Translations under genes and position numbers: made by a program
DNA from: a virus
DNA: 64,000 nt
Virus record (IMG/VR): IMGVR_UViG_3300018018_000001
Coordinates: 117,622 to 181,621 of that record
Reading direction: 5' to 3' (one strand)
The notes under the pieces: generated by a model
Seen by the model: the letters and a program-made list of their open reading frames with translations, nothing else
Database searches by the model: none
What the model was told of the DNA's origin: nothing
Shown: positions 17,109 to 36,801 of the stretch, in pieces
Layout of the letters: every line of letters starts with the position of its first letter
Numbering within the stretch: the first letter of the stretch is position 1

Positions 17109-17320
17109 AAATATTAATTGCATTATTTTTTAGTCTTTTAATTATTTATTCCTGTTCTGGTGGGGTAACAAAAGATGGGATAGACAAAGCTGAAAAGCTT
17201 TGTAAAGATCATGGTGGCATTAATAATTTAGAATCATTTCTATTAACTGACTCAGACAATTCGATTGTCTATTGTAAGGATGGGGTTGTATTCAAGGCTT
17301 GGTATAATTATAAAAAATAA
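17105..17320 (+). CDS. Small lipoprotein
   Basis: 71 residues. Signal with lipobox: MKILIALFFSLLIIYSCSG, cleavage expected before Cys17. The mature part has two more cysteines (AEKLCKDHGG, SIVYCKDG) that could form a disulfide outside the cytoplasm. ATG overlaps the previous stop. Cell-envelope role inferred; it sits oddly among recombination genes. Confidence 0.65.
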   Translation: MKILIALFFSLLIIYSCSGGVTKDGIDKAEKLCKDHGGINNLESFLLTDSDNSIVYCKDGVVFKAWYNYKK

Positions 17321-23911: not shown

Positions 23912-24083
23912 AAAAATGTTTTGGTCAATGTTCTCTTTTATTGTAAATCTTTTGTGGGATATAAGAGATTATATATCTGTGATTCCCCCCCATCAAGACA
24001 ATGGATGGCCAGTAAATCATTATTCCAAAAAAGAATATGATAAACTTGAATCAAAGTCCAGGGAATGGATTGAGGAGGAATAG
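23895..24083 (+). CDS. Small hypothetical protein, possibly membrane-associated
   Basis: 62 residues. The N-terminal part MFWSMFSFIVNLLWDIRDYISV is hydrophobic; the C-terminal half is polar (HYSKKEYDKLESKSREWIEEE). No family recognised. Shares its last base with the GTG of the GIY-YIG gene. Confidence 0.55.
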   Translation: MRKSDRKMFWSMFSFIVNLLWDIRDYISVIPPHQDNGWPVNHYSKKEYDKLESKSREWIEEE

Positions 24084-24721
24084 TGATTTTTGGTAGAATT
24101 TATATAGTTACAAATAAAATAAATGGTAAGAATTATGTTGGTAAAACAACCAAAGAATTAAGATTTAGAAAGGCTGAACACTTTAGTTTCTCCAGAAATA
24201 GTAGTATGATTTTCCATAAAGCACTTAGAAAATATGGTAAGGAAAATTTTGAATGGGAAGAAATTTCTTGGGCAGGATCTATTGAGGAACTTAATAAATA
24301 TGAAATAATAATGATTGATTTTTATAAAACTAAAGTACCTAATGGATATAATGTTACTGATGGTGGAGAAGGTGGTGGCTCAAATCCTTCAGAAGAAGTA
24401 AGAAAGAAAAGGGGCAGTGGGTGGAGAGGAAAAAAGAATCCAGATCAATCTATAAGAATGAGAGGAAATAAATTTTCCAAAGGAAAAAAGTTCCTTCATA
24501 CTTCAGAAAGAAACAAAAAGCAAATTGGAGATAAGAATCCTTTTTATGGGAAATTTCATACTGAAGAAACCAAAGCAATAAATAGAGATAAACATAAAGG
24601 TAAACACTCAAAAACAGAATTTAAGGGAGGTAGTGATCATCCATTTTTTGGAAAGAAAAGGCCAGAACATGCAGAAATAATGAAAGAATATCATCGGAGG
24701 AGAAATGAAATTAATTCCTAG
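24083..24721 (+). CDS. GIY-YIG homing endonuclease with NUMOD3 repeats
   Basis: 212 residues from GTG 24083 with GAGGAGG upstream. The GIY-YIG core reads GRIYIVTNKINGKNYVGKTT, with the catalytic Arg in LRFRKAEH, and Glu later (KYEIIMIDFY). The C-terminal half is a chain of NUMOD3-like DNA-binding motifs (GKKNPDQS, GDKNPFYGKFHTEE, SDHPFFGKK). Free-standing homing nuclease of the Seg type. Overlaps the next start by 17 bases. Confidence 0.92.
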   Translation: MIFGRIYIVTNKINGKNYVGKTTKELRFRKAEHFSFSRNSSMIFHKALRKYGKENFEWEEISWAGSIEELNKYEIIMIDFYKTKVPNGYNVTDGGEGGGSNPSEEVRKKRGSGWRGKKNPDQSIRMRGNKFSKGKKFLHTSERNKKQIGDKNPFYGKFHTEETKAINRDKHKGKHSKTEFKGGSDHPFFGKKRPEHAEIMKEYHRRRNEINS

Positions 24722-25438: not shown

Positions 25439-26344
25439 ATGGCTTACCAATATTCTTTAGTAGATGCAAATTATTTAGCCCATAGGTCAGTCTATAAGGG
25501 TTCTCATTTACAAACCTCTCAAGGGATTCCTACAGGGGGGATTTTTATTTTTCTGAAGTCTCTTTGGTATCTGAGGGAATTAGGTAATGAAATGATCCTT
25601 GTCTTTGACGGAGGGCATAGTCCCTACCGAAAAGTCCTTTACCTTGAGTACAAGGTAAGGGACGAAAAGGAACTCAAGATTCAAAAGATTCTCAAGTTTA
25701 CCTTTGACACTCTCATGGATATTACCCCTAAATTGGGTTTCCCTACCCTCAGAATGGAACAAACAGAGGCGGATGACGTTCTCTACCTCTTAGCCAAGCA
25801 TATGCGAACCTGGGGCATTATAGCCTTGTCTGGGGATGATGATTTCCTACAATTGACCAAATTGGACATTGACGTTTATAATCCCCGTACTGATGAGCAC
25901 TGGAATAGGGAAAAATTCACCAAAGAGTGGGGATTTGCCCCTGAGTATTTCTCCCTTTGGAAATCTTTGGTGGGGGATGATTCCGACAAAATTTTGGGAG
26001 TCCCAAGGTTAGGAATGGGTAAGAAATTTCCTGAGTTAGGTGATAAGTGGAAGGCTGCTCCATATATTATCAAACAGTTAAAAGAACCCTCCCTTTCGGG
26101 ATTATATGACTGGGCTGTAGCCAATCCAGATCCCCTTGGTAACAAAATCATTAATCATTTCCAGATAGTAAAGAGAAACTACCTCTTAATGGACTTGGAT
26201 CATTGTGAGGTTTCCCTTGATTCAGTCCTGGAAGAACTTAAGATTTCTACCCAAAAAGCCGAAAAGAACCTTGGTTATATTACAAAAATCTTTAAGGATC
26301 TTGAGTTCAAGGAGTTAGCCATGTGGTTAACTTACCTATCCTAA
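25439..26344 (+). CDS. 5'-3' exonuclease / flap endonuclease (T4 RNase H-like)
   Basis: 301 residues from ATG 25439. Metal-binding acidic residues typical of the family: YSLVDANYLAHRS, ILVFDGGHSPYRKVLY, EQTEADDVLYLLAKH and IALSGDDDFLQL, then LVGDDSDKILGVPRLG (helix-hairpin-helix region). Removes RNA primers and 5' flaps in lagging-strand synthesis. Lies near the likely origin and the primase gene. Confidence 0.9.
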   Translation: MAYQYSLVDANYLAHRSVYKGSHLQTSQGIPTGGIFIFLKSLWYLRELGNEMILVFDGGHSPYRKVLYLEYKVRDEKELKIQKILKFTFDTLMDITPKLGFPTLRMEQTEADDVLYLLAKHMRTWGIIALSGDDDFLQLTKLDIDVYNPRTDEHWNREKFTKEWGFAPEYFSLWKSLVGDDSDKILGVPRLGMGKKFPELGDKWKAAPYIIKQLKEPSLSGLYDWAVANPDPLGNKIINHFQIVKRNYLLMDLDHCEVSLDSVLEELKISTQKAEKNLGYITKIFKDLEFKELAMWLTYLS

Positions 26345-26351
26345 AGGGGGA

Positions 26352-26918
26352 ATGGTGAAAAAATATCAGGTAATGGTTATTGATCCTCCGTGGAATATCA
26401 AGAAGTTAACCCGAAAAGTAAGGCCAAATCAAGTCAAGATGGACTATTCCACCATGACTGTTGATGAAATAGCCGCCTTGCCCCTTGCAGCAATTTCTGA
26501 TGATTCATGTTGGTGCTTTCTCTGGACTATCCAAAAATTCCTATTCAATGCCAAACCCATCCTTGAGGGGTGGGGATTCAATCACCTTTTGACCATGACA
26601 TGGGAAAAAACCTATGGCCGATCTGCAGGGATGCCCTTATATGGATTCCTATGGAATGTAGAATTTATCCTTGTTGGTTACAAGAAGAAACCCGACCTCT
26701 GGCCAATCAGAAAATTAATACCCGCCGCTTTCAATGCAGAAAATATTAAGCATTCACAAAAGCCAGATAGATTTTATGAATTAATTAATCCTTTGGGAGA
26801 AAATAGGATTGATATTTTTGCCAGAAAGAAACGTCCTGGGTGGGATACTATTGGGGATGGAATTAGCGGAAAAGATATTCGACAAGAGATAGCCGAATTA
26901 TCAGGAGAGGTAAAATGA
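26352..26918 (+). CDS. MT-A70-family adenine methyltransferase
   Basis: 188 residues. The catalytic motif DPPW (about 11-14) in VMVIDPPWNIKK, then DYSTMTVDEIAALPL, CFLWTIQKFL, GWGFNHLLTMTWEK, HSQKPDRFYELINPLG and RIDIFARKKRPGWD: the MT-A70 pattern of N6-adenine modification of DNA or RNA. It is the third methylase in the window (others 9849/10681 and 30400), perhaps for protection against host restriction. Confidence 0.9.
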   Translation: MVKKYQVMVIDPPWNIKKLTRKVRPNQVKMDYSTMTVDEIAALPLAAISDDSCWCFLWTIQKFLFNAKPILEGWGFNHLLTMTWEKTYGRSAGMPLYGFLWNVEFILVGYKKKPDLWPIRKLIPAAFNAENIKHSQKPDRFYELINPLGENRIDIFARKKRPGWDTIGDGISGKDIRQEIAELSGEVK

Positions 26919-26922
26919 GGGG

Positions 26923-27140
26923 TGTAATGGAGCATTACACGTTACCTTTTTTAAACCCAAATCAGGTGTGTAATGGAGCATTACACACTACCTTTTTTGA
27001 CAAAATCAAGAGTGTAATGGAGCATTACAGTGTCTTTTTTGCAACAAAAATGAATGTAATGGAGCATTACATACCCAAATTCAGGGGATTAAAAATGGAC
27101 TGCGTAATAGCATTACACGAAGTTGTAATGCAGCATTACG
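26923..27140 (+). repeat. Palindromic iteron array, candidate replication origin
   Basis: Four exact copies of TGTAATGGAGCATTACA start at 26923, 26969, 27013 and 27055, a shortened copy (CGTAATAG-CATTACA) is at 27102 and a variant (TGTAATGCAGCATTACG) at 27124. Spacing is 42-47 bases, about four DNA turns, then 22. Three copies are followed by a T-run (CTTTTTT). A half site is near 27193. An AT-rich block and the primase-helicase gene follow directly, as expected for an origin. Confidence 0.7.
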
Positions 27141-27210
27141 TAATGATTTTTAAAAATCAAAACTATATTAAAGAGTTAGAGAGTTCAGAAGCGTGTAATG
27201 AAATGAGTGC

Positions 27211-27346
27211 TTAATAGTATTATTATTAATAGTATATATTATTATATATACTCTCTAGTAATTACTAGTAACTACTATTATATAGGTAGGTAGGATGGTA
27301 GGTATGGTAGTAGGTAGCTTCTATATATTAGCTGAAAGGGGATTGA
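27211..27346 (+). other. AT-rich block and GGTAG repeats, possible unwinding element
   Basis: 27211-27286 is almost pure A and T with many TAT, TAATAG and TACTAGTA steps. From 27284 to 27318 there is a run of short GGTA/GGTAG repeats. No gene fits. It lies between the iterons and the primase-helicase start. Confidence 0.55.
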
Positions 27347-29353
27347 GTGTATACAATAAAACCAAATTTTGAGAATATAGAATTAATATTCAAAGATGAC
27401 TTGGATAAACCTATTTGGATTTGTTGGCAAGAGATTCCTCCCTCTGAGGCTGAAATTAAAAAGGCTGAAGTCCTAATGAGAGAAGCCAAGCCTGTTAAGA
27501 TGCCGATTGATCCCAATACTGGATTCCAGGCAAAGACCAATGACGAAAAGACATGGGGAACATACTGGGTAGCGAAAGCATATTACCAATCTAACCCTGA
27601 TAAAATGTCCGGTTTAGGTCTAAATTATTATGGTAAGGGGGATAAGGATAAAAATTCTCATATCCTTTCTTTTGACCTGGATGACATTAAGAATGAATCA
27701 GGAGAGATTAAGGCTACCGTGATTAGGATTATTACTAAACTCTTGTCCTGGACTGAATTAACCCCTTCAGGAAAGGGGTGTAGGATCTATGTGAGAGAAA
27801 ATTGGATGAAAGGAGGGAGAAAAGCAGGGATATTCAAAGATTTTAATGAAAAGGGGGAACCAGAAGAGCAGAAAATAGAATTTTTTGGTGAGGGGAATCA
27901 CTATGTAACAATTACGGGTGTTCCTATTCCTAAAATAAATGGATTTGATAACAATAAAATAGAAAAAAGACCAAAAGATTTGACAGAGATGATTTATCAA
28001 AAAGTGTTCCCCCCTATTGTTAAATCCAATGAAGTTAAAGAGAAAGATGTAGAGATAACAGAATCCTATTTGGCCGAAGAACTTAGCTCTATTGGTTTTG
28101 AATATAAGCAAGAGTGGGGTATGGATCAGGGTGGAAAATCGGGATTCAAATTTAAGATTACTTGCCCTTGGGGATCAGAGGAGGGAACAGAACATGAAAG
28201 CGGTGTAAATAACTTAGGAGATGCTTTTATTTTTGTACCTGAAGACCATCGAAGGCCATGGTTTCATTGTTCCCACGCCACTTGTAAAGATAAATATTCA
28301 TGGGAAGACTTTTGTAGAAAAGTATTTGGCTATATTCTTTCCGATGGATCTTTGAATAGGAACATAATGTCCTGGATTAATGATCATCCAGGGGAAATGT
28401 TTGACCATCGTTTTCTTCAAAATGAATTTCATATTTTTTCTGAAAGTGAAAAAAATAATTTACGTGTTACTTTGTTTAGAGCTAAGAAAGATAATATAAT
28501 TGAACAACTTTCAAAATCCGGTAATTATCGGGTTATTTCAACAAAGGTGGTGGAAATGCCATTAGCTAAAAATGAGAAAAAGTCTTTTAAGATAGCTTTG
28601 CCATTGAATATTAATCTCTTAGGGACGTTTAAGCCTGAGAGGATTATTCTGGTACAAGGGGAAGTTAATGCAGGAAAAACTGCTTTTAACTTTAGCCTTA
28701 TTAAACCCAATTATAGGATAACTCCTATTCATTATTTTAGTAATTCCGAAATTGATGCAGAGGATATTGAAAGCAGAATGGCTTATCTGTTTTGTGAGAA
28801 ACCAATGGAATACTGGCAAGATAAAAATAATCTTAGTTTCCATAGAATAGAAATTGAAACTGAATTTGCTGATGTAGTTAGGTTGTATAAAGATTCCATT
28901 ATTATTTGCGATTACTTTGATGCCTCAAAGGATTATACTCAAGCCGCTCATCAAATGGCCAGAATCCATGATAAGTTACAAGGAACAGGGAATATGGCAA
29001 TAGTGTCAGTCCAGATTAATATTAACAAAGAAGTCAAGGATAATTTTGCATTGAGGGCATATGGAGGACCAAGTTTGACAACAAGACCTTCTACTGTCTT
29101 TAACTTAGTTAAAAGTAGTGGATACAATGTTCTTTATGTCCAAAAATTTAAACAAGTAGATCCTGTAGTCTACAAATTATTCTATGACAACCGATGGTGC
29201 CGGCCGTATAGAGTTTATGCCGAAGGTGGATTTATTGAAAAGACAACAGAGTATTGGGAACACCGTGGAGATAAAGAAGATGAGATCCCATTTAAACTAT
29301 CTGACGATAAGGAGAATTGGGGAAAGACTCCACCCCAAGTTACGGGGGGATAA
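27347..29353 (+). CDS. Primase-polymerase / helicase replication protein
   Basis: 668 residues from GTG 27347 with GAAAGGGGA upstream. N-terminal part resembles primase-polymerase domains (ILSFDLDDI near 105-113; TPSGKGCRIYV; FFGEGNHYVTITG). A zinc-like centre WFHCSHATC is near 300-310. The C-terminal part is a RecA-type ATPase with Walker A GEVNAGKT (residues 438-445) and a likely Walker B SIIICDYFDAS. Priming and unwinding at the nearby origin is inferred. Confidence 0.78.
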   Translation: MYTIKPNFENIELIFKDDLDKPIWICWQEIPPSEAEIKKAEVLMREAKPVKMPIDPNTGFQAKTNDEKTWGTYWVAKAYYQSNPDKMSGLGLNYYGKGDKDKNSHILSFDLDDIKNESGEIKATVIRIITKLLSWTELTPSGKGCRIYVRENWMKGGRKAGIFKDFNEKGEPEEQKIEFFGEGNHYVTITGVPIPKINGFDNNKIEKRPKDLTEMIYQKVFPPIVKSNEVKEKDVEITESYLAEELSSIGFEYKQEWGMDQGGKSGFKFKITCPWGSEEGTEHESGVNNLGDAFIFVPEDHRRPWFHCSHATCKDKYSWEDFCRKVFGYILSDGSLNRNIMSWINDHPGEMFDHRFLQNEFHIFSESEKNNLRVTLFRAKKDNIIEQLSKSGNYRVISTKVVEMPLAKNEKKSFKIALPLNINLLGTFKPERIILVQGEVNAGKTAFNFSLIKPNYRITPIHYFSNSEIDAEDIESRMAYLFCEKPMEYWQDKNNLSFHRIEIETEFADVVRLYKDSIIICDYFDASKDYTQAAHQMARIHDKLQGTGNMAIVSVQININKEVKDNFALRAYGGPSLTTRPSTVFNLVKSSGYNVLYVQKFKQVDPVVYKLFYDNRWCRPYRVYAEGGFIEKTTEYWEHRGDKEDEIPFKLSDDKENWGKTPPQVTGG

Positions 29354-30090
29354 TGAAAACCAAAGAGTTTAAATTATGTGAATGCAATTGTGGTAATTAT
29401 GCCAAACCAGGAAATAGATTTATTAATGGGCATAATAGAATAGGGAAGAAAAATATTGAAGCTGCTTCTAGGATAGGTAATAAAAATCCAATGTTTGGTA
29501 GAACTGGTAAAAATAGTCCTATATTTAATAGGAAACATACTAAAGATGAATTGAGAGAGATGAGTGAATCTCAAAAAGGTGAGAAAGGTTATTGGTTTGG
29601 AAAGAAAAATTTTGATCATTCTGTTAGAATGTTAGGAGAGAAGAGTCCAAGATTTGGTAAACCTGGCTATTGGGCAGGAAAGAAAAGACCAGATATTTCA
29701 GCTAAACCTAGTCCTATGCTTGGAAAGAAAAATCCTATTGTTTCTATTTTAATGAAAGAAAAAACAGGTGATAAGAATAATAATTGGAATGGAGGGTCCT
29801 CTTTTGAACCTTATAGTTTAGAGTGGACTAATGAATTAAAAAATAAAATTAGAGAAAGGGATCATTATATTTGTCAACTTTGTAAAAAATATGGAAATAC
29901 TATTCATCATATTGATTATAATAAGAAGCATTGTGATTTTAGTAATTTAATTAATTTATGTAGAAGTTGCAATGTTAAAGTAAATAAGAATAGAATTCAA
30001 TGGGAAATTTATTTTAGACTATATATGGTTATAAATCAGAAAGGAGAGAGAAATGAAAGTGGAACTCGAAGCACCAAAGAAAATTCTTGA
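29353..30090 (+). CDS. HNH homing endonuclease with NUMOD3 repeats
   Basis: 245 residues from ATG 29353 (TAATG overlap with the primase stop). CECNCGNYAKPGNRFINGHN, four or more NUMOD3-like repeats (GNKNPMFGRTG, GEKGYWFGKKN, GEKSPRFGKPGYW), then the HNH core (CQLCKKYG, HHIDYNK, LCRSCNVKVN). Closest in plan to 2866 and 5904. The tail overlaps the next gene by 38 bases. Confidence 0.92.
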   Translation: MKTKEFKLCECNCGNYAKPGNRFINGHNRIGKKNIEAASRIGNKNPMFGRTGKNSPIFNRKHTKDELREMSESQKGEKGYWFGKKNFDHSVRMLGEKSPRFGKPGYWAGKKRPDISAKPSPMLGKKNPIVSILMKEKTGDKNNNWNGGSSFEPYSLEWTNELKNKIRERDHYICQLCKKYGNTIHHIDYNKKHCDFSNLINLCRSCNVKVNKNRIQWEIYFRLYMVINQKGERNESGTRSTKENS

Positions 30091-30415: not shown

Positions 30416-30930
30416 GTGGTCATCAAAGAACGTATCAAGGTAGAACCAATGAATGGTTTACCCCGAAATGGATTATAGACAAGCTTGGGCAATTTGATTT
30501 GGACCCCTGCTCCTCTGATAGAAGGCCATTTGATATTGCGCCTAGATGGTTTACAAAAGAGGATAATGGGTTGAGTAAGGAATGGCTTGGTATGGTATTT
30601 GTTAATCCACCTTATGGCCCTGAGACTAAGCTGTGGCTTAAAAAGCTTAAAGAGTATGGGAATGGGATAGCTCTTGTCTTTGCCCTGACTGAAACCAAAA
30701 TGTTCTTTGACCATGTTTGGAATGACTGTTCTGCAATCCTGTTTATCAAAAAGAGGGTTTCCTTTACCGATTGCACAGGGGATGAAGGGCAGAGTTCCAA
30801 TGGTGGCCCCTCTGTTTTGATTGCTTATGGAGAGCAAGCGGCTGAAAGATTGGAGAAATCAGGGATTGAGGGAAAGTTTATTAATATGAAAAGAAAAGGA
30901 TTATTTGAATTTAAGGTTAAGTTTCTATGA
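30400..30930 (+). CDS. Phage N6-adenine DNA methyltransferase (Dam-type)
   Basis: 176 residues. ATG 30400 has AAGGAG 8 bases upstream; GTG 30391 is the other choice. NEWFTPKWIIDKLGQFDLDPCSS, then the catalytic NPPYGP (about 69-74) and ALVFALTETKMFFDHVW fit the phage DNA N-6-adenine-methyltransferase family. Likely modifies phage DNA to escape restriction. Overlaps the next gene by 4 bases. Confidence 0.88.
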   Translation: MGSGIGGHQRTYQGRTNEWFTPKWIIDKLGQFDLDPCSSDRRPFDIAPRWFTKEDNGLSKEWLGMVFVNPPYGPETKLWLKKLKEYGNGIALVFALTETKMFFDHVWNDCSAILFIKKRVSFTDCTGDEGQSSNGGPSVLIAYGEQAAERLEKSGIEGKFINMKRKGLFEFKVKFL

Positions 30931-31535
30931 TTGATAAAAATTATCGTTTAAATGTAGGTAGGGCAGGTGAATTTTTAGTTGCTGCTGATTTAATTTTAAA
31001 GGGATTTAGGGCTTTCCCTACTTCTGAGGGTCTTTCTTATGATATTATTTTAGAAACTAAAAATCATATTTTTTTAAAAATTCAAGTAAAGTCAACAATT
31101 GGAAAAAGAAAAAGAAGTAAACAGAATGGACAAAAGGGTGAATCTCCTTTTAGATATATTTTTCATGGAAAAAGAAGTGGAAAGCATGGAAAAAATTGTT
31201 ATACAGATAAGGAAGTAGATATTTTTGCTTTTATTGCTCTTGATAGCAAAGAAATTGGTTATATTCCTATTGATTTTATTCAAGATCAAATGCCTTTCCT
31301 TCCTGAGGGTTCAAAAGTTTCTAGGTCTGTTGATGATATAAAAATTAAAATATTTGAACTAAAGAGTAAAGGACTTACACTAACTGAAATTTCTAAAAGA
31401 TTGGGTAAACATATAAGCTGGGTTTGCAGGGTTTCTCAGGGTAAAGAAAATAATTCTATTAAGGAGAGACATTTATCTGATTTTCCAATAGATAAAGCTG
31501 TTGAATATATCTTATCAAAGAAAGAGCATAAATAA
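30927..31535 (+). CDS. PD-(D/E)XK homing-type endonuclease with HTH
   Basis: 202 residues. GRAGEFLVAADLILKGFRAF (E), SYDIILET (D) and FLKIQVKST (Q-x-K) form the nuclease core of the intron-associated PD-(D/E)XK type. The C-terminal part is a helix-turn-helix (GLTLTEISKRLGKHISWVCRVSQG). Strong AT bias and ATGA/TAATG overlaps on both sides match the mobile HNH genes, so I read it as another free-standing homing nuclease. Confidence 0.8.
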   Translation: MIDKNYRLNVGRAGEFLVAADLILKGFRAFPTSEGLSYDIILETKNHIFLKIQVKSTIGKRKRSKQNGQKGESPFRYIFHGKRSGKHGKNCYTDKEVDIFAFIALDSKEIGYIPIDFIQDQMPFLPEGSKVSRSVDDIKIKIFELKSKGLTLTEISKRLGKHISWVCRVSQGKENNSIKERHLSDFPIDKAVEYILSKKEHK

Positions 31536-32349: not shown

Positions 32350-32620
32350 TATTTATATTGGTCGTTGGAATCCAAGAATTCCTATTGATAGTAAATATCG
32401 AAACCCTTTTAAGATAGGGATTGACGGTGATAGGTTGGAATGTCTTAAGAAGTTCAAGGAATATTTCTATTCCAATTCTGCTCTTATGATTGATGCAGTA
32501 CAGGAACTTAAGGGAAAAATATTGGGTTGCTGGTGCAAAGAAGAGGGTAAGTCTGAAATGGAAACTCTTTGTCATGGGGATATTCTTGCCGCTTATGTGG
32601 ATAACTTTACGGAGGGTTAA
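32342..32620 (+). CDS. DUF4326 protein
   Basis: 92 residues, overlapping the previous stop by 8 bases. DIYIGRWNPRIP...KYRNPFKIGIDGDRLECLKKFKEYF...ELKGKILGCWCKE...CHGDILAAYVD is the complete DUF4326 pattern. The function of this family is not established; it often accompanies nucleotide metabolism in phages. Its last base is the first of the polymerase ATG. Confidence 0.85.
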   Translation: MDDIYIGRWNPRIPIDSKYRNPFKIGIDGDRLECLKKFKEYFYSNSALMIDAVQELKGKILGCWCKEEGKSEMETLCHGDILAAYVDNFTEG

Positions 32621-35600
32621 TGGGGAATTCACCTGCTATTTGTGATGATTGTGAAAAGTGTTTACTCTGTTATCAGGATATAAAGCATCCAGGTCTTGGT
32701 GGCCGTGGAAACTTAAATGATCCTATCCTTGTTGGGATTGGGGAGGCCCCTGGACCTGATGAGGATATAGAAGGAACAATTTTCATTGGTAAAGCAGGGA
32801 AAGAGTTGGAATTGCTTTTGGGTGATAAACTTCCTCTGATATATCTTACTAATGCCTTAAAGTGTTTGCCCCTCAAGAGGTTTGATGATCCTTCACAAGG
32901 TTTCCGTACTCCTGAGGCTTTGGAAATCTTTTCTTGCCGCTCACTTTTATTCAAAGAGCTTAAGGCTTTTGATCCCAATAAAGTTATCTTGATGCCAATG
33001 GGAGCAATAGCATATCAATCCATATTTGGTTTCCCTCCTGATCCTGGAATTCTGTCAGTAGCCGGGATGCCTATGAGAGTAAAAATAAATAACACAGAAT
33101 TTTTGGTAGTACCTAATGTTCATCCCTCTTGGGTTGCCAGAGCCCCTAAAGAAAGAGAGGGAAAATTTAGAGGTATTTTGAACAGGGCTTGGGGCCTTGC
33201 TAAAGAAGGAAATTTATCAACTGTGAGTATCGAGAGTAAGGGAGCAGACTATGAAATTCTAAACCCTAATAGAGCTATCCAGGAACTTGAATTTATCCTG
33301 GCAAATAAAGAAAATCTTCCATACATAATAGTGGATTTGGAAACTACTTCTTTGGATTATTGGAAAGCCAAAATCCTTATGATTAACTTTGCTCATTCTC
33401 TTAATCCCAAGGGGTTTTCAATACCGCTCAGAGTTACTAATGAAAATCATCATCCTGATAAATATCCATACCAGGTTCCAATAATTCCTTGGGATATTAC
33501 TCCTGAACAGGTTTCTAAGATAATAGGGTTGTTTATAAAGATTCTTGAAAGTGTTCCTCTTGTCGGCCATAATCTCAAATATGATTTGTTGATTCTGCTT
33601 TGGAATAAATGGATAGCAAATTTAGATAATGTTGTTGTGTTTGATGATACTATGATTCTTCTCCATTTGATTTACAATCAGAAATTAGGCAATTTGAAAC
33701 TCAAGGATTGCTGTAAAAAATTGTTTAATATAGTAGATGATTGGGATAAGAAAGTTACAAGCTACCTGGAGTTGTTCCGATTAAAGGAGGATAAAACTAA
33801 CTATGCCCTTTTGCCTACGTCCATTCTTGGGGAATATGGGGCTTTGGATGCTTATTACAATCGGAAGTTACATGACCATCTTCTTGAGGACTTCCCTAAG
33901 GATTTGACAGAGCTAAGAGAATTTATTACTTATCTAACAATTGTCTTGACCGAATCTGAGATTTCGGGAATAGCCTTGGATGAGGATGTTCATAAATTCC
34001 TTGCGAACACCTATGGAGATATGCTGGATAAGATGTTTGACAAGGCTTTATCCTTTCCTATGGTTAAGAAATATATTGAGGCTAACATAGGTTCTGTGAG
34101 AGAGGCAAATGAAAAGCCTAGAAAGAAAAAGAAGCTATCCGAAGAGGAAATGGTAGCTGAAGTATTTACGATGACAAAACGGTTGGCCCTTGTGGATGTA
34201 ATGTATGACAAAGAATATTTGGGTATGCCTGTACTCAAGAAAACCAAGGGGGGAAAGGATAGGTCTGCCAAAGCCCCTTCCACTGACCAAGAAGCCGTGG
34301 AATTACTCCATCTTTATCCTAAGCTGAATGAGGACCAGAGAATCTTTATTGATAACCTGGCTGATTACCGAACCATAGACAAATTGAAATCCACCTATGT
34401 AGATCCTGTCATGAACCAGTTTGTGGATAATCTTTACCGTCAAGAGTTCATGATTCCAGGGACCATAACTGGTAGACTTTGTTTAGTTGGTAGTACAAAA
34501 ATTTCATTACTAAATGGTGAAGAAATAGAAATTGATAAATTACCAATAAATGAAAAAATATATTTATATGGTTGTCTTCAAGATGGTGGCATAATTCCTG
34601 TTGAAGCTATATCAATTGGGGAAACTAAGAAAGTTACTATTATTGCAGAAGTTATATTAGATAATGGTTGTATTGAAAGATGCACTCTTGACCATTCTTG
34701 GATGTTAAGAGATGGGTCTTATAAAGAAGCCCAGTATCTTAATCCTGGTGATTCTTTAATGCCTTTATACAGAGAAACTAAAAAAATAGGAGAATATAAA
34801 GATTATGAAGTTATTATAAATAATAAAAATGGTAAAAAAATTCTTACTCATAAATTAGTAGCTAATTATTTTAATAGAGATCAAAAATTGGAGGTTAGGA
34901 AAAATACCAAAGATAAATACTTGGTTATTCATCATGACGATTTTAATAGAAAAAATAATTACCCTAAAAATTTAATTTGGATGGGGGAACATGATCATTG
35001 GATACTTCACGCCTCTCTTGGTAAGGCGGACTTACTTCTAAAATATGTTTGTTCTGATGAGGGTAGAAAAAAATCTAGTGAAAGATTATTGAAAAGATGG
35101 TCTGACCTAGAATATAGAGAAAAACAAATAAAGATTCTTAGAAATAATGGTCTTAAAAGTTGGGAGTCAGAAGATAGAAGAAACAAGCAAGTCCAGATTG
35201 GTAGAAATAATGCCCATTTTATGCTTACCCCTAAATTTAGGGAAAAGTCTTTAAAATTATCTATTCCTATAAATTCTAAAAGATGGAAAGAGTTGTGGGG
35301 CATTGATGAAAAGTGGAGACAAGATTGTATTAATAGAATTAAAGAAATATGGAATAATGAAGAATATAGAGAAAAAATGTCTTCCATTGCTAAAGATACA
35401 ATTAGGAAGCAACTTCAAGATCCTATATTTGTAGAAAAATCAAGATTAGCTGCTATAAAATGTGGTACTGAAGTGTTTAATAGAGTAATAAATAAACTAT
35501 GTCCTAAATGTGGTAAGATATTTGTTAAACAAGCAGCTTTAAATGGGCATCTTGGCTACTGTGGTAAAGGATTAAATAATAAGAAAGATTATTTAAATGA

Positions 35601-36801
35601 CGTTGTTAATCAGTCTTGCCCTAAATGTGGGAAAACTTTTTTAATTAAAGGCAGCTATATTGGGCATGTGAACAGTTGTAAACACAACCATAGAGTAGTG
35701 TCTGTCAAAATAATAAAATTAGAAAATCCCATCTCTGTTTATGAAATTGCTTATTCTAAAACAAATAATTTTGCACTTTCATCCGGAGTTTTTGTCCACA
35801 ATTCTTCGGGATTCCATACTCTCCCCCGTGAGTCAGATATTAAGAGAATGTATACAAGTCGATGGAGGGAAAAAGGTGGCTTGATTTTGGGATTCGATTT
35901 TTCACAATTGGAACTGAGAGTTTTGGCCTGTCTATCCCAAGAGCCTAAAATGATTGAAGCTTTTATCAATCATGTGGACATTCATGCCAAGACAGGGGGG
36001 GAGATTGCGGGTAAGTCTTGGGATAAGATAACTCCTGATGAGCGTTCTATCGGAAAGACCACAAATTTTGCAATTGTGTACGGAAAAACTGCTGATACCC
36101 TGAAAGATGACTTGCATGTGTCCAGGGAAAGAGCGCAGCAGATTATTGACAGTGTGCTAGGGGGTTATGATAAAGTAGCGTCCTGGATGGAAGCAAGGCA
36201 CAAGGAACTGGAAAATATAGGGGGAATCAAGACGATTTTTGGTAGGGAGATTCCCATTCCAGAGTTCTACCTTCAGGGCAGAACCTTTGAGTTAGAGGCC
36301 CAGAGAAAGTCTGTAAATTATCCAATACAATCAACGGCTTCCGATTTGGCTAATAGTGGCTTAGTGAGATTATATAAGAAATTCAAGATGTTACATTTAC
36401 AGAGTATAATTCTTGCCGCTATCCATGATGCTGCTTATTCCGATCTTAAGCCTGGAGAATTATTCGTTTCTATAGCCATGATGAAGAAAATTCTTGAGGC
36501 TGAGACTATGAGGATGTATCCTTGGATTATTTGTCCTATTGAAATAGACATTTCTATGGGTACATCATTGGGAAGTTCTATAAAATTAGAGGTAGAAGAA
36601 CTTGAGGAAAATCGAGCACTTCTAAAGGGAAAGGGACTTAGGAAGGATTTTAATATGCTTATGAATGTGGGACAAGAGGCTTATAACATGAAATTCTACC
36701 TGGAAAAGGAAAAGCCTGTAGATTCAGATTACTTCACTTTAGATCGTGTCTTGGGGGATACTGTTGAGTGGAAAGGAAGGCTAGAAGTATCCAATAAATG
36801 A
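32620..36801 (+). CDS. Family A DNA polymerase with N-terminal UDG-like domain and intein
   Basis: 1393 residues, about 952 after intein removal. Residues 1-200 are a uracil-DNA-glycosylase family 4/5-like domain (CLLCYQ, GEAPGPDEDIEGTIFIGKAG, PNVHPSW). Next a 3'-5' exonuclease (IVDLETTSLD, VGHNLKYDLLILL, GEYGALDAYYN). Then the polymerase: TGRL at 617-620 joins SSG at 1062 after splicing; motif A FDFSQLELR (Asp1093); motif B R1142, K1146, NFAIVYG (Tyr1154); motif C IHDAA (Asp1270). Motif C has Ala where the family has Glu (HDE), and motif B has NFA not NFG. Main replicative polymerase is inferred. Confidence 0.93.
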   Translation: MGNSPAICDDCEKCLLCYQDIKHPGLGGRGNLNDPILVGIGEAPGPDEDIEGTIFIGKAGKELELLLGDKLPLIYLTNALKCLPLKRFDDPSQGFRTPEALEIFSCRSLLFKELKAFDPNKVILMPMGAIAYQSIFGFPPDPGILSVAGMPMRVKINNTEFLVVPNVHPSWVARAPKEREGKFRGILNRAWGLAKEGNLSTVSIESKGADYEILNPNRAIQELEFILANKENLPYIIVDLETTSLDYWKAKILMINFAHSLNPKGFSIPLRVTNENHHPDKYPYQVPIIPWDITPEQVSKIIGLFIKILESVPLVGHNLKYDLLILLWNKWIANLDNVVVFDDTMILLHLIYNQKLGNLKLKDCCKKLFNIVDDWDKKVTSYLELFRLKEDKTNYALLPTSILGEYGALDAYYNRKLHDHLLEDFPKDLTELREFITYLTIVLTESEISGIALDEDVHKFLANTYGDMLDKMFDKALSFPMVKKYIEANIGSVREANEKPRKKKKLSEEEMVAEVFTMTKRLALVDVMYDKEYLGMPVLKKTKGGKDRSAKAPSTDQEAVELLHLYPKLNEDQRIFIDNLADYRTIDKLKSTYVDPVMNQFVDNLYRQEFMIPGTITGRLCLVGSTKISLLNGEEIEIDKLPINEKIYLYGCLQDGGIIPVEAISIGETKKVTIIAEVILDNGCIERCTLDHSWMLRDGSYKEAQYLNPGDSLMPLYRETKKIGEYKDYEVIINNKNGKKILTHKLVANYFNRDQKLEVRKNTKDKYLVIHHDDFNRKNNYPKNLIWMGEHDHWILHASLGKADLLLKYVCSDEGRKKSSERLLKRWSDLEYREKQIKILRNNGLKSWESEDRRNKQVQIGRNNAHFMLTPKFREKSLKLSIPINSKRWKELWGIDEKWRQDCINRIKEIWNNEEYREKMSSIAKDTIRKQLQDPIFVEKSRLAAIKCGTEVFNRVINKLCPKCGKIFVKQAALNGHLGYCGKGLNNKKDYLNDVVNQSCPKCGKTFLIKGSYIGHVNSCKHNHRVVSVKIIKLENPISVYEIAYSKTNNFALSSGVFVHNSSGFHTLPRESDIKRMYTSRWREKGGLILGFDFSQLELRVLACLSQEPKMIEAFINHVDIHAKTGGEIAGKSWDKITPDERSIGKTTNFAIVYGKTADTLKDDLHVSRERAQQIIDSVLGGYDKVASWMEARHKELENIGGIKTIFGREIPIPEFYLQGRTFELEAQRKSVNYPIQSTASDLANSGLVRLYKKFKMLHLQSIILAAIHDAAYSDLKPGELFVSIAMMKKILEAETMRMYPWIICPIEIDISMGTSLGSSIKLEVEELEENRALLKGKGLRKDFNMLMNVGQEAYNMKFYLEKEKPVDSDYFTLDRVLGDTVEWKGRLEVSNK
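34480..35802 (+). other. Intein with HNH endonuclease inside the DNA polymerase
   Basis: 441 residues, polymerase residues 621-1061. Starts Cys (CLVGSTKISLLNGEEI), has block B-like CTLDHSWM, and ends VYEIAYSKTNNFALSSGVFVHN, followed by Ser as +1 residue. The insertion point is inside the conserved TGRL-SS motif. The middle carries an HNH-like homing module (IHHDDFNRKNNYPKNL), NUMOD-like helical repeats (KSSERLLKRWSDLEYREK) and two zinc fingers (CPKCGK...H, twice). All splice residues look intact, so it should be active. Confidence 0.92.

Follow-up and report, generated by a model that had tools for sequence, protein, structure and literature searches.

Where does a large contractile-tailed phage begin to copy its genome, and does an array of identical palindromes lying in front of its primase-helicase gene mark the place? 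The question is raised by an uncultured bacterial virus whose IMG/VR record, 181,621 bp long, is classed as linear without end repeats. The stretch analysed here, called the window, comprises 64,000 nucleotides (record positions 117,622–181,621), and coordinates are those of the window unless given as record positions. Genes lie on the plus strand along the record except between about 92 and 116 kb. The proteins scanned include, for structure and packaging, a tail sheath, a head maturation protease and a likely large terminase, and for replication and metabolism a ribonucleotide reductase, a family A DNA polymerase, a UvsX-like recombinase, SSB, SbcC/D, a helicase and a 5′–3′ exonuclease; judged from this gene set, the virus is a contractile-tailed phage. 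No close relative was found in the collections searched; the nearest, a 16.9-kb contig, has a sheath 75% identical.

The array is surrounded by replication genes (exonuclease, primase-helicase, polymerase, recombinase and SSB), its immediate neighbours being a methyltransferase gene and the PrimPol-helicase gene. The gap between these two, 26919–27346, measures 428 bp, where the median intergenic gap of the window is about one base, and it is the largest in the record if an overlapping 99-codon ORF is not a gene. An apparent gap of 1,001 bp at record position 92461 proved to be an artefact of a strand cut-off; a plus-strand ORF is present there. The region is laid out as follows.

26352–26918, plus strand: MT-A70 adenine methyltransferase gene, stopping five bases 5′ of the array.
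26915–27214, plus strand: putative 99-codon ORF that spans the array; its codon score is borderline and it has no homologue.
26923–26939, plus strand: iteron 1, TGTAATGGAGCATTACA, exact match, 8-bp arms with flank.
26969–26985, plus strand: iteron 2, TGTAATGGAGCATTACA, exact match, 10-bp arms with flank.
27013–27029, plus strand: iteron 3, TGTAATGGAGCATTACA, exact match, 7-bp arms.
27055–27071, plus strand: iteron 4, TGTAATGGAGCATTACA, exact match, 8-bp arms with flank.
26940–27054, plus strand: spacers between iterons 1–4, each with a T6 tract (26947, 26993, 27035).
27104–27116, plus strand: variant site GTAATAGCATTAC, its centre two bases shorter.
27124–27140, plus strand: variant site TGTAATGCAGCATTACG.
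27193–27200, plus strand: half-site TGTAATGA, with GTAATG at 27195, adjoining the AT block.
27204–27285, no strand: AT-rich block, candidate DNA unwinding element, 18% G+C.
27286–27319, plus strand: GTAG/GGTAG cluster, the densest in the record.
27347–29353, plus strand: primase-helicase gene, candidate initiator, with PrimPol N-terminus, winged helix and RecA-like ATPase.

An earlier note on this DNA had described four identical 17-base palindromes at spacings of 42–46 bases, two variants, a block of nearly pure A and T, GGTAG repeats and then a primase-helicase gene, and all of these are present where it placed them, with the composition of the AT block slightly overstated. Several other elements were noticed. 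Homing-type endonucleases (GIY-YIG, HNH with NUMOD3, LAGLIDADG), one of them directly 3′ of the primase-helicase gene, and an HNH match within the 1393-aa polymerase ORF, which may represent an intein or insert, were seen at 24083–24721, 29317–30090 and 32620–36801 and at 17217–19415 of L018. A 401-aa ORF (L015, 16127–17332) contains at least 12 imperfect tandem repeats of 42 bp, or 14 residues, each.

The four palindromes are spaced 46, 44 and 42 bases apart. Matches to the 17-mer with up to three mismatches on either strand number 11, against 0.26 expected from dinucleotide shuffles, and a long inverted repeat can arise from the two variant sites. In pairwise comparison the first three spacers are 60–78% identical whilst the 17-base core is the same four times over, so the core looks selected; the pattern suggests selection on these 17 bp. 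No fifth exact copy of TGTAATGGAGCATTACA occurs across the 181.6-kb record, and a scan of all 181,621 bp, exact or loose, gave no other palindrome array, making this the sole palindromic iteron array of the phage. The occurrence of the palindromes in front of unrelated genes, which the earlier note had named as an argument against an origin, was thus not observed record-wide. That note had also taken the near four-turn spacing to suggest a dimeric protein on one face of the DNA. At 10.5 bp per turn the site centres are 4.38, 4.19, 4.00 and 4.48 turns apart; sites 3 and 4 alone are in true helical phase, and site 1 is about 0.57 turn off both of them, which leaves the one-face reading weak.

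Two other kinds of repeat were considered and rejected. A CRISPR-like array is ruled out by the likeness of the spacers (60–78%) and their common T6 tracts, and a mobile or dispersed repeat in this phage by the lack of any other array in the record. Tannerella and Prevotellaceae assemblies (L005–L012) carry dispersed elements with tandem palindromes, GTAATGGCGCATTAC, at a period of about 21 bp, and the flanks of the Tannerella elements reappear from contig to contig, with the look of terminal inverted repeats (GGGCAACCGCATCAAAA / TTTTGATGCGGTTGCCC). A direct relationship to the GTAATGNNGCATTAC arrays of Bacteroidetes assemblies is unsupported, as those have shorter periods and different flanks and apparently form dispersed elements.

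By nearest-neighbour energy, no 60- or 80-bp stretch anywhere in the record is less stable than the one in the AT block, at 27211, and the block ranks third for low duplex stability at 100 bp. It also holds an eight-fold TAN run (27212–27235), the only run of eight in the record. The adjacent GTAG/GGTAG cluster is a possible site of strand-specific binding or priming. As these features overlap or adjoin each other, they do not count as independent evidence. No DnaA box (TTATCCACA or TTWTNCACA) is present in 26300–27700, so the region does not conform to a DnaA-dependent origin.

The first gene 3′ of the array encodes a product of 668 residues. At the N-terminus it matches phage primases as well as the NrS-1 primase of solved structure, whilst the C-terminal half is a RecA-like ATPase also present in a protein of the Methanosarcina virus MetMV, a homologue that itself matches Prim-Pol and DnaB_C. 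The template motif of NrS-1 PrimPol is TTTGGTTA, and this motif is missing from the array region. Between primase and ATPase, residues ~333–397 are predicted to fold as helix-strand-helix-helix-strand-strand. The full-length model was poor (pLDDT 32) and for that reason only its winged-helix part was used; this core reached a pLDDT of about 90 when modelled alone with two relatives from viral contigs, and is the sole part modelled with confidence. In Foldseek searches of the PDB it matched the operator-binding domains of GntR, FadR and AraR, Z-alpha and the winged helices of MCM, and among predicted viral proteins a phage DNA primase. These matches combine probabilities near 1 with E-values that are weak, which the small size of the fold would lead one to expect; searching PDB chains with the sequence of this part gave no match. 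The winged helix is a frequent reader of operators and iterons.

Taken together, near-identical repeats at regular spacing (four exact copies and two variants at 42–46 bp), an adjoining AT-rich element predicted from its energy to melt readily and an adjoining gene for a candidate initiator with a predicted winged helix have the form of an iteron origin, and this anatomy with its genome-wide uniqueness favours that reading. The best explanation is that array and AT block are probably the replication origin of the phage, of the lambda-type kind that pairs iterons with an unwinding element. The earlier note's proposal of a probable origin is partly supported, by anatomy, uniqueness, melting minimum and the adjacent replication gene. 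Counted against it are the incomplete helical phasing, the missing DnaA box, the similar appearance that an operator array would have and, as set out below, the course of the strand skew and the lack of such an array in the scanned stretches of relatives.

Considering the arrangement of these elements, we infer a course of binding, melting, initiation and fork direction. A dimeric or oligomeric protein would bind the four identical palindromes, and more weakly the two variants, and would bend or wrap the spacers with their A/T tracts, upon which the adjoining AT block would melt. The primase-helicase encoded just downstream could then load onto the exposed strand, prime, and hand over to the family A DNA polymerase of the phage. 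The most economical reader of the palindromes would be the primase-helicase itself, acting through its internal winged helix. It is our leading candidate, which remains a tentative guess, and a separate small DNA-binding protein is equally possible. Another candidate DNA-binding protein by its sequence, encoded at 30927–31535, about 3.6 kb downstream of the array, combines a PD-(D/E)XK nuclease domain with an HTH and has a weak KorB-like match. That a single PrimPol–winged helix–RecA-like helicase recognises the palindromic iterons, opens the AT element, loads itself and primes is, as a complete scheme, conceivable and on balance somewhat doubtful.

Strand composition was one check that the earlier note had put forward. 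GC skew shows no sign change at the array and flips instead near 92.5 and 116.5 kb; as the skew follows gene strand, it is uninformative about the origin. Four-fold-site skew in plus-strand genes is −0.23 to the left and −0.07 to the right of the array, a step of the kind that forks moving away from it would produce, and its best change point lies near 61.4 kb of the window, away from the array. At record positions ~116.5–116.9 kb (L019, 16510–16911) there is a divergent intergenic region with a switch from minus- to plus-strand genes, a GC-skew sign change and two strong sigma28-like promoters, which by skew alone would be a rival place for an origin. Searches for relatives used the array, the 99-aa ORF, the methyltransferase, the primase-helicase, the polymerase and the tail sheath as queries. 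No record carrying the array was found in the IMG/VR, phage and plasmid collections searched, and scanning stretches of MetMV, XAJ2, Kmi2C, Molly_3 and IMG/VR records, which are related through the helicase, primase or polymerase, revealed no palindromic array.

The strongest competitor to a replication origin is an array of operators, on which a phage or host regulator bound to the palindromes would control a promoter in the AT block and with it the primase-helicase operon, by autoregulation or as a replication switch. Dimeric regulators usually have operators of palindromic form, the array stands directly upstream of a gene, and hexamers resembling −10 elements are found in the AT block (27198–27226 and 27211–27240). 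However, promoter-like sites are not enriched (16, against 17.5 in shuffles), the recognisable sigma28-like promoters of the phage are located elsewhere and have no palindromes, and six sites over 220 bp together with the melting minimum of the record exceed what an operator needs. We consider regulation as the main role of the array unlikely, whilst an origin that doubles as an operator is compatible with the same evidence. About 17–20 near-perfect motifs of the sigma28/FliA type, CTAAACTTT-N12-GCCGATAAGATA, were observed, with a second class that ends GCCGAAGAGA; the count was 20, against about 6 in shuffles. They occur at window positions 1012, 4537, 5276, 6544, 8881, 36823, 43966, 45206, 47409, 48961, 51716, 56566, 58748 and 60749 and at record positions 116608, 116893 and 57657 (minus strand), and from these motifs the phage seems to use flagellar-type promoters.

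The inverted repeats could also be read in RNA, as an array of terminators or attenuators whose hairpins and T runs would halt or delay transcription in the interval from the methyltransferase gene to the primase-helicase gene. Copy 2, with a folding energy of −13.4 kcal/mol, precedes ACC and T6, and folding of the entire region is stronger than that of shuffles (z −5.7), as it would be for any set of inverted repeats. The stems of copies 1, 3 and 4 are short and A-U-rich, however, and the T runs start 5–7 bases past the palindrome or, for copy 4, are missing. Since an intrinsic terminator has a G+C-rich hairpin each time with a T run immediately after it, and only copy 2 approaches this, such an array is improbable. 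All copies share the unpaired centre GAG and one stem sequence, which points instead to sequence-specific recognition.

A further alternative is that the 99-codon ORF is a real small gene and the repeats a by-product of coding, or that an origin lies inside the ORF as in lambda. The ORF has a GGAGAGG resembling a ribosome-binding site, an ATGA overlap with the preceding stop and no stop over 99 codons, and its codon score of 0.04 is above that of most chance ORFs (mean −0.13, sd 0.14). That score is nevertheless below those of most neighbouring genes, the ORF yielded neither a family match nor a tblastn match, and the spacings of 46 and 44 shift the repeats between frames. Because the frame changes from one repeat to the next, the repeat is kept as DNA rather than protein. 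We hold translation to be an improbable account of the array; a coding ORF would in any case be compatible with an origin.

A partition centromere or packaging site, which repeated palindromes could also form and to which the KorB-like match of the 30927–31535 protein might point (very weak, E 0.009, below the cut-off), is most improbable of all for a gene set of a contractile-tailed phage, with no ParA/ParB pair among the proteins scanned and some 100 kb separating the array from the likely large terminase gene (record ~43.4–45.3 kb).

Should the replication origin be confirmed with the primase-helicase as its reader, it would represent self-contained initiation by one protein, and the origin reader of this large contractile-tailed phage would be a winged helix set between its primase and helicase. 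Few large virulent phages have mapped origins, T4 and ICP1 being examples in the literature. The candidate is compact, comprising repeat, melting element and candidate initiator gene, and this makes origin recognition by a PrimPol-helicase testable with short DNA and one protein.

Known systems share parts of this arrangement. The pairing of an initiator helicase with iterons beside its gene is established in mobile elements (PMC7581432). SaPI Rep and SCCmec Cch2-CCPol are of this kind, with an initiator helicase that has its own DNA-binding domain, gene-adjacent iterons and a dedicated primase-polymerase (PMC7581432), but their iterons are short direct repeats downstream of the gene for a different helicase, which binds through a C-terminal domain, whereas the palindromes of this phage are long and placed upstream, and its winged helix is internal. 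The replication protein ORF904 of pRN1 likewise joins PrimPol, helicase and winged helix, and its origin is beside its gene (PMC4234260), as the candidate origin is here. That origin takes the form of a 100-nt stem-loop, which lies downstream of the gene and has no iterons (PMC4234260), unlike the upstream iterons described here, and the pRN1 helicase is of SF3 with a C-terminal winged helix, in place of an internal one joined to a RecA-like ATPase. The origin of PLE, the satellite of ICP1, also has a few semi-palindromic iterons, which are read by the dimeric N-terminal domain of its initiator (PMC8263062, PMC7145576); there are three of them, of ~30 bp, and the initiator is of the RepA_N type, a type not seen among the proteins scanned here.

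The closest likeness in layout is to the lambda and Stx-phage ori, in which four 19-bp iterons, imperfect inverted repeats, stand beside an AT-rich tract, with bending by A-tracts, near replication genes, and which shows that an origin can sit inside coding sequence (PMC7466680). Lambda ori, however, is embedded in O, the initiator gene, and depends on a helicase loader, whereas the iterons here are 42–46 bp apart and upstream of a PrimPol-helicase gene, the overlapping 99-aa ORF having no family match. Neither an O-like protein among those scanned nor sequence kinship with lambda ori was found, and since the array does not lie within an O-type initiator gene accompanied by a P-type loader, we do not file the array as a lambda-type member. 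By analogy of parts, the array may at most work in the manner of lambda ori.
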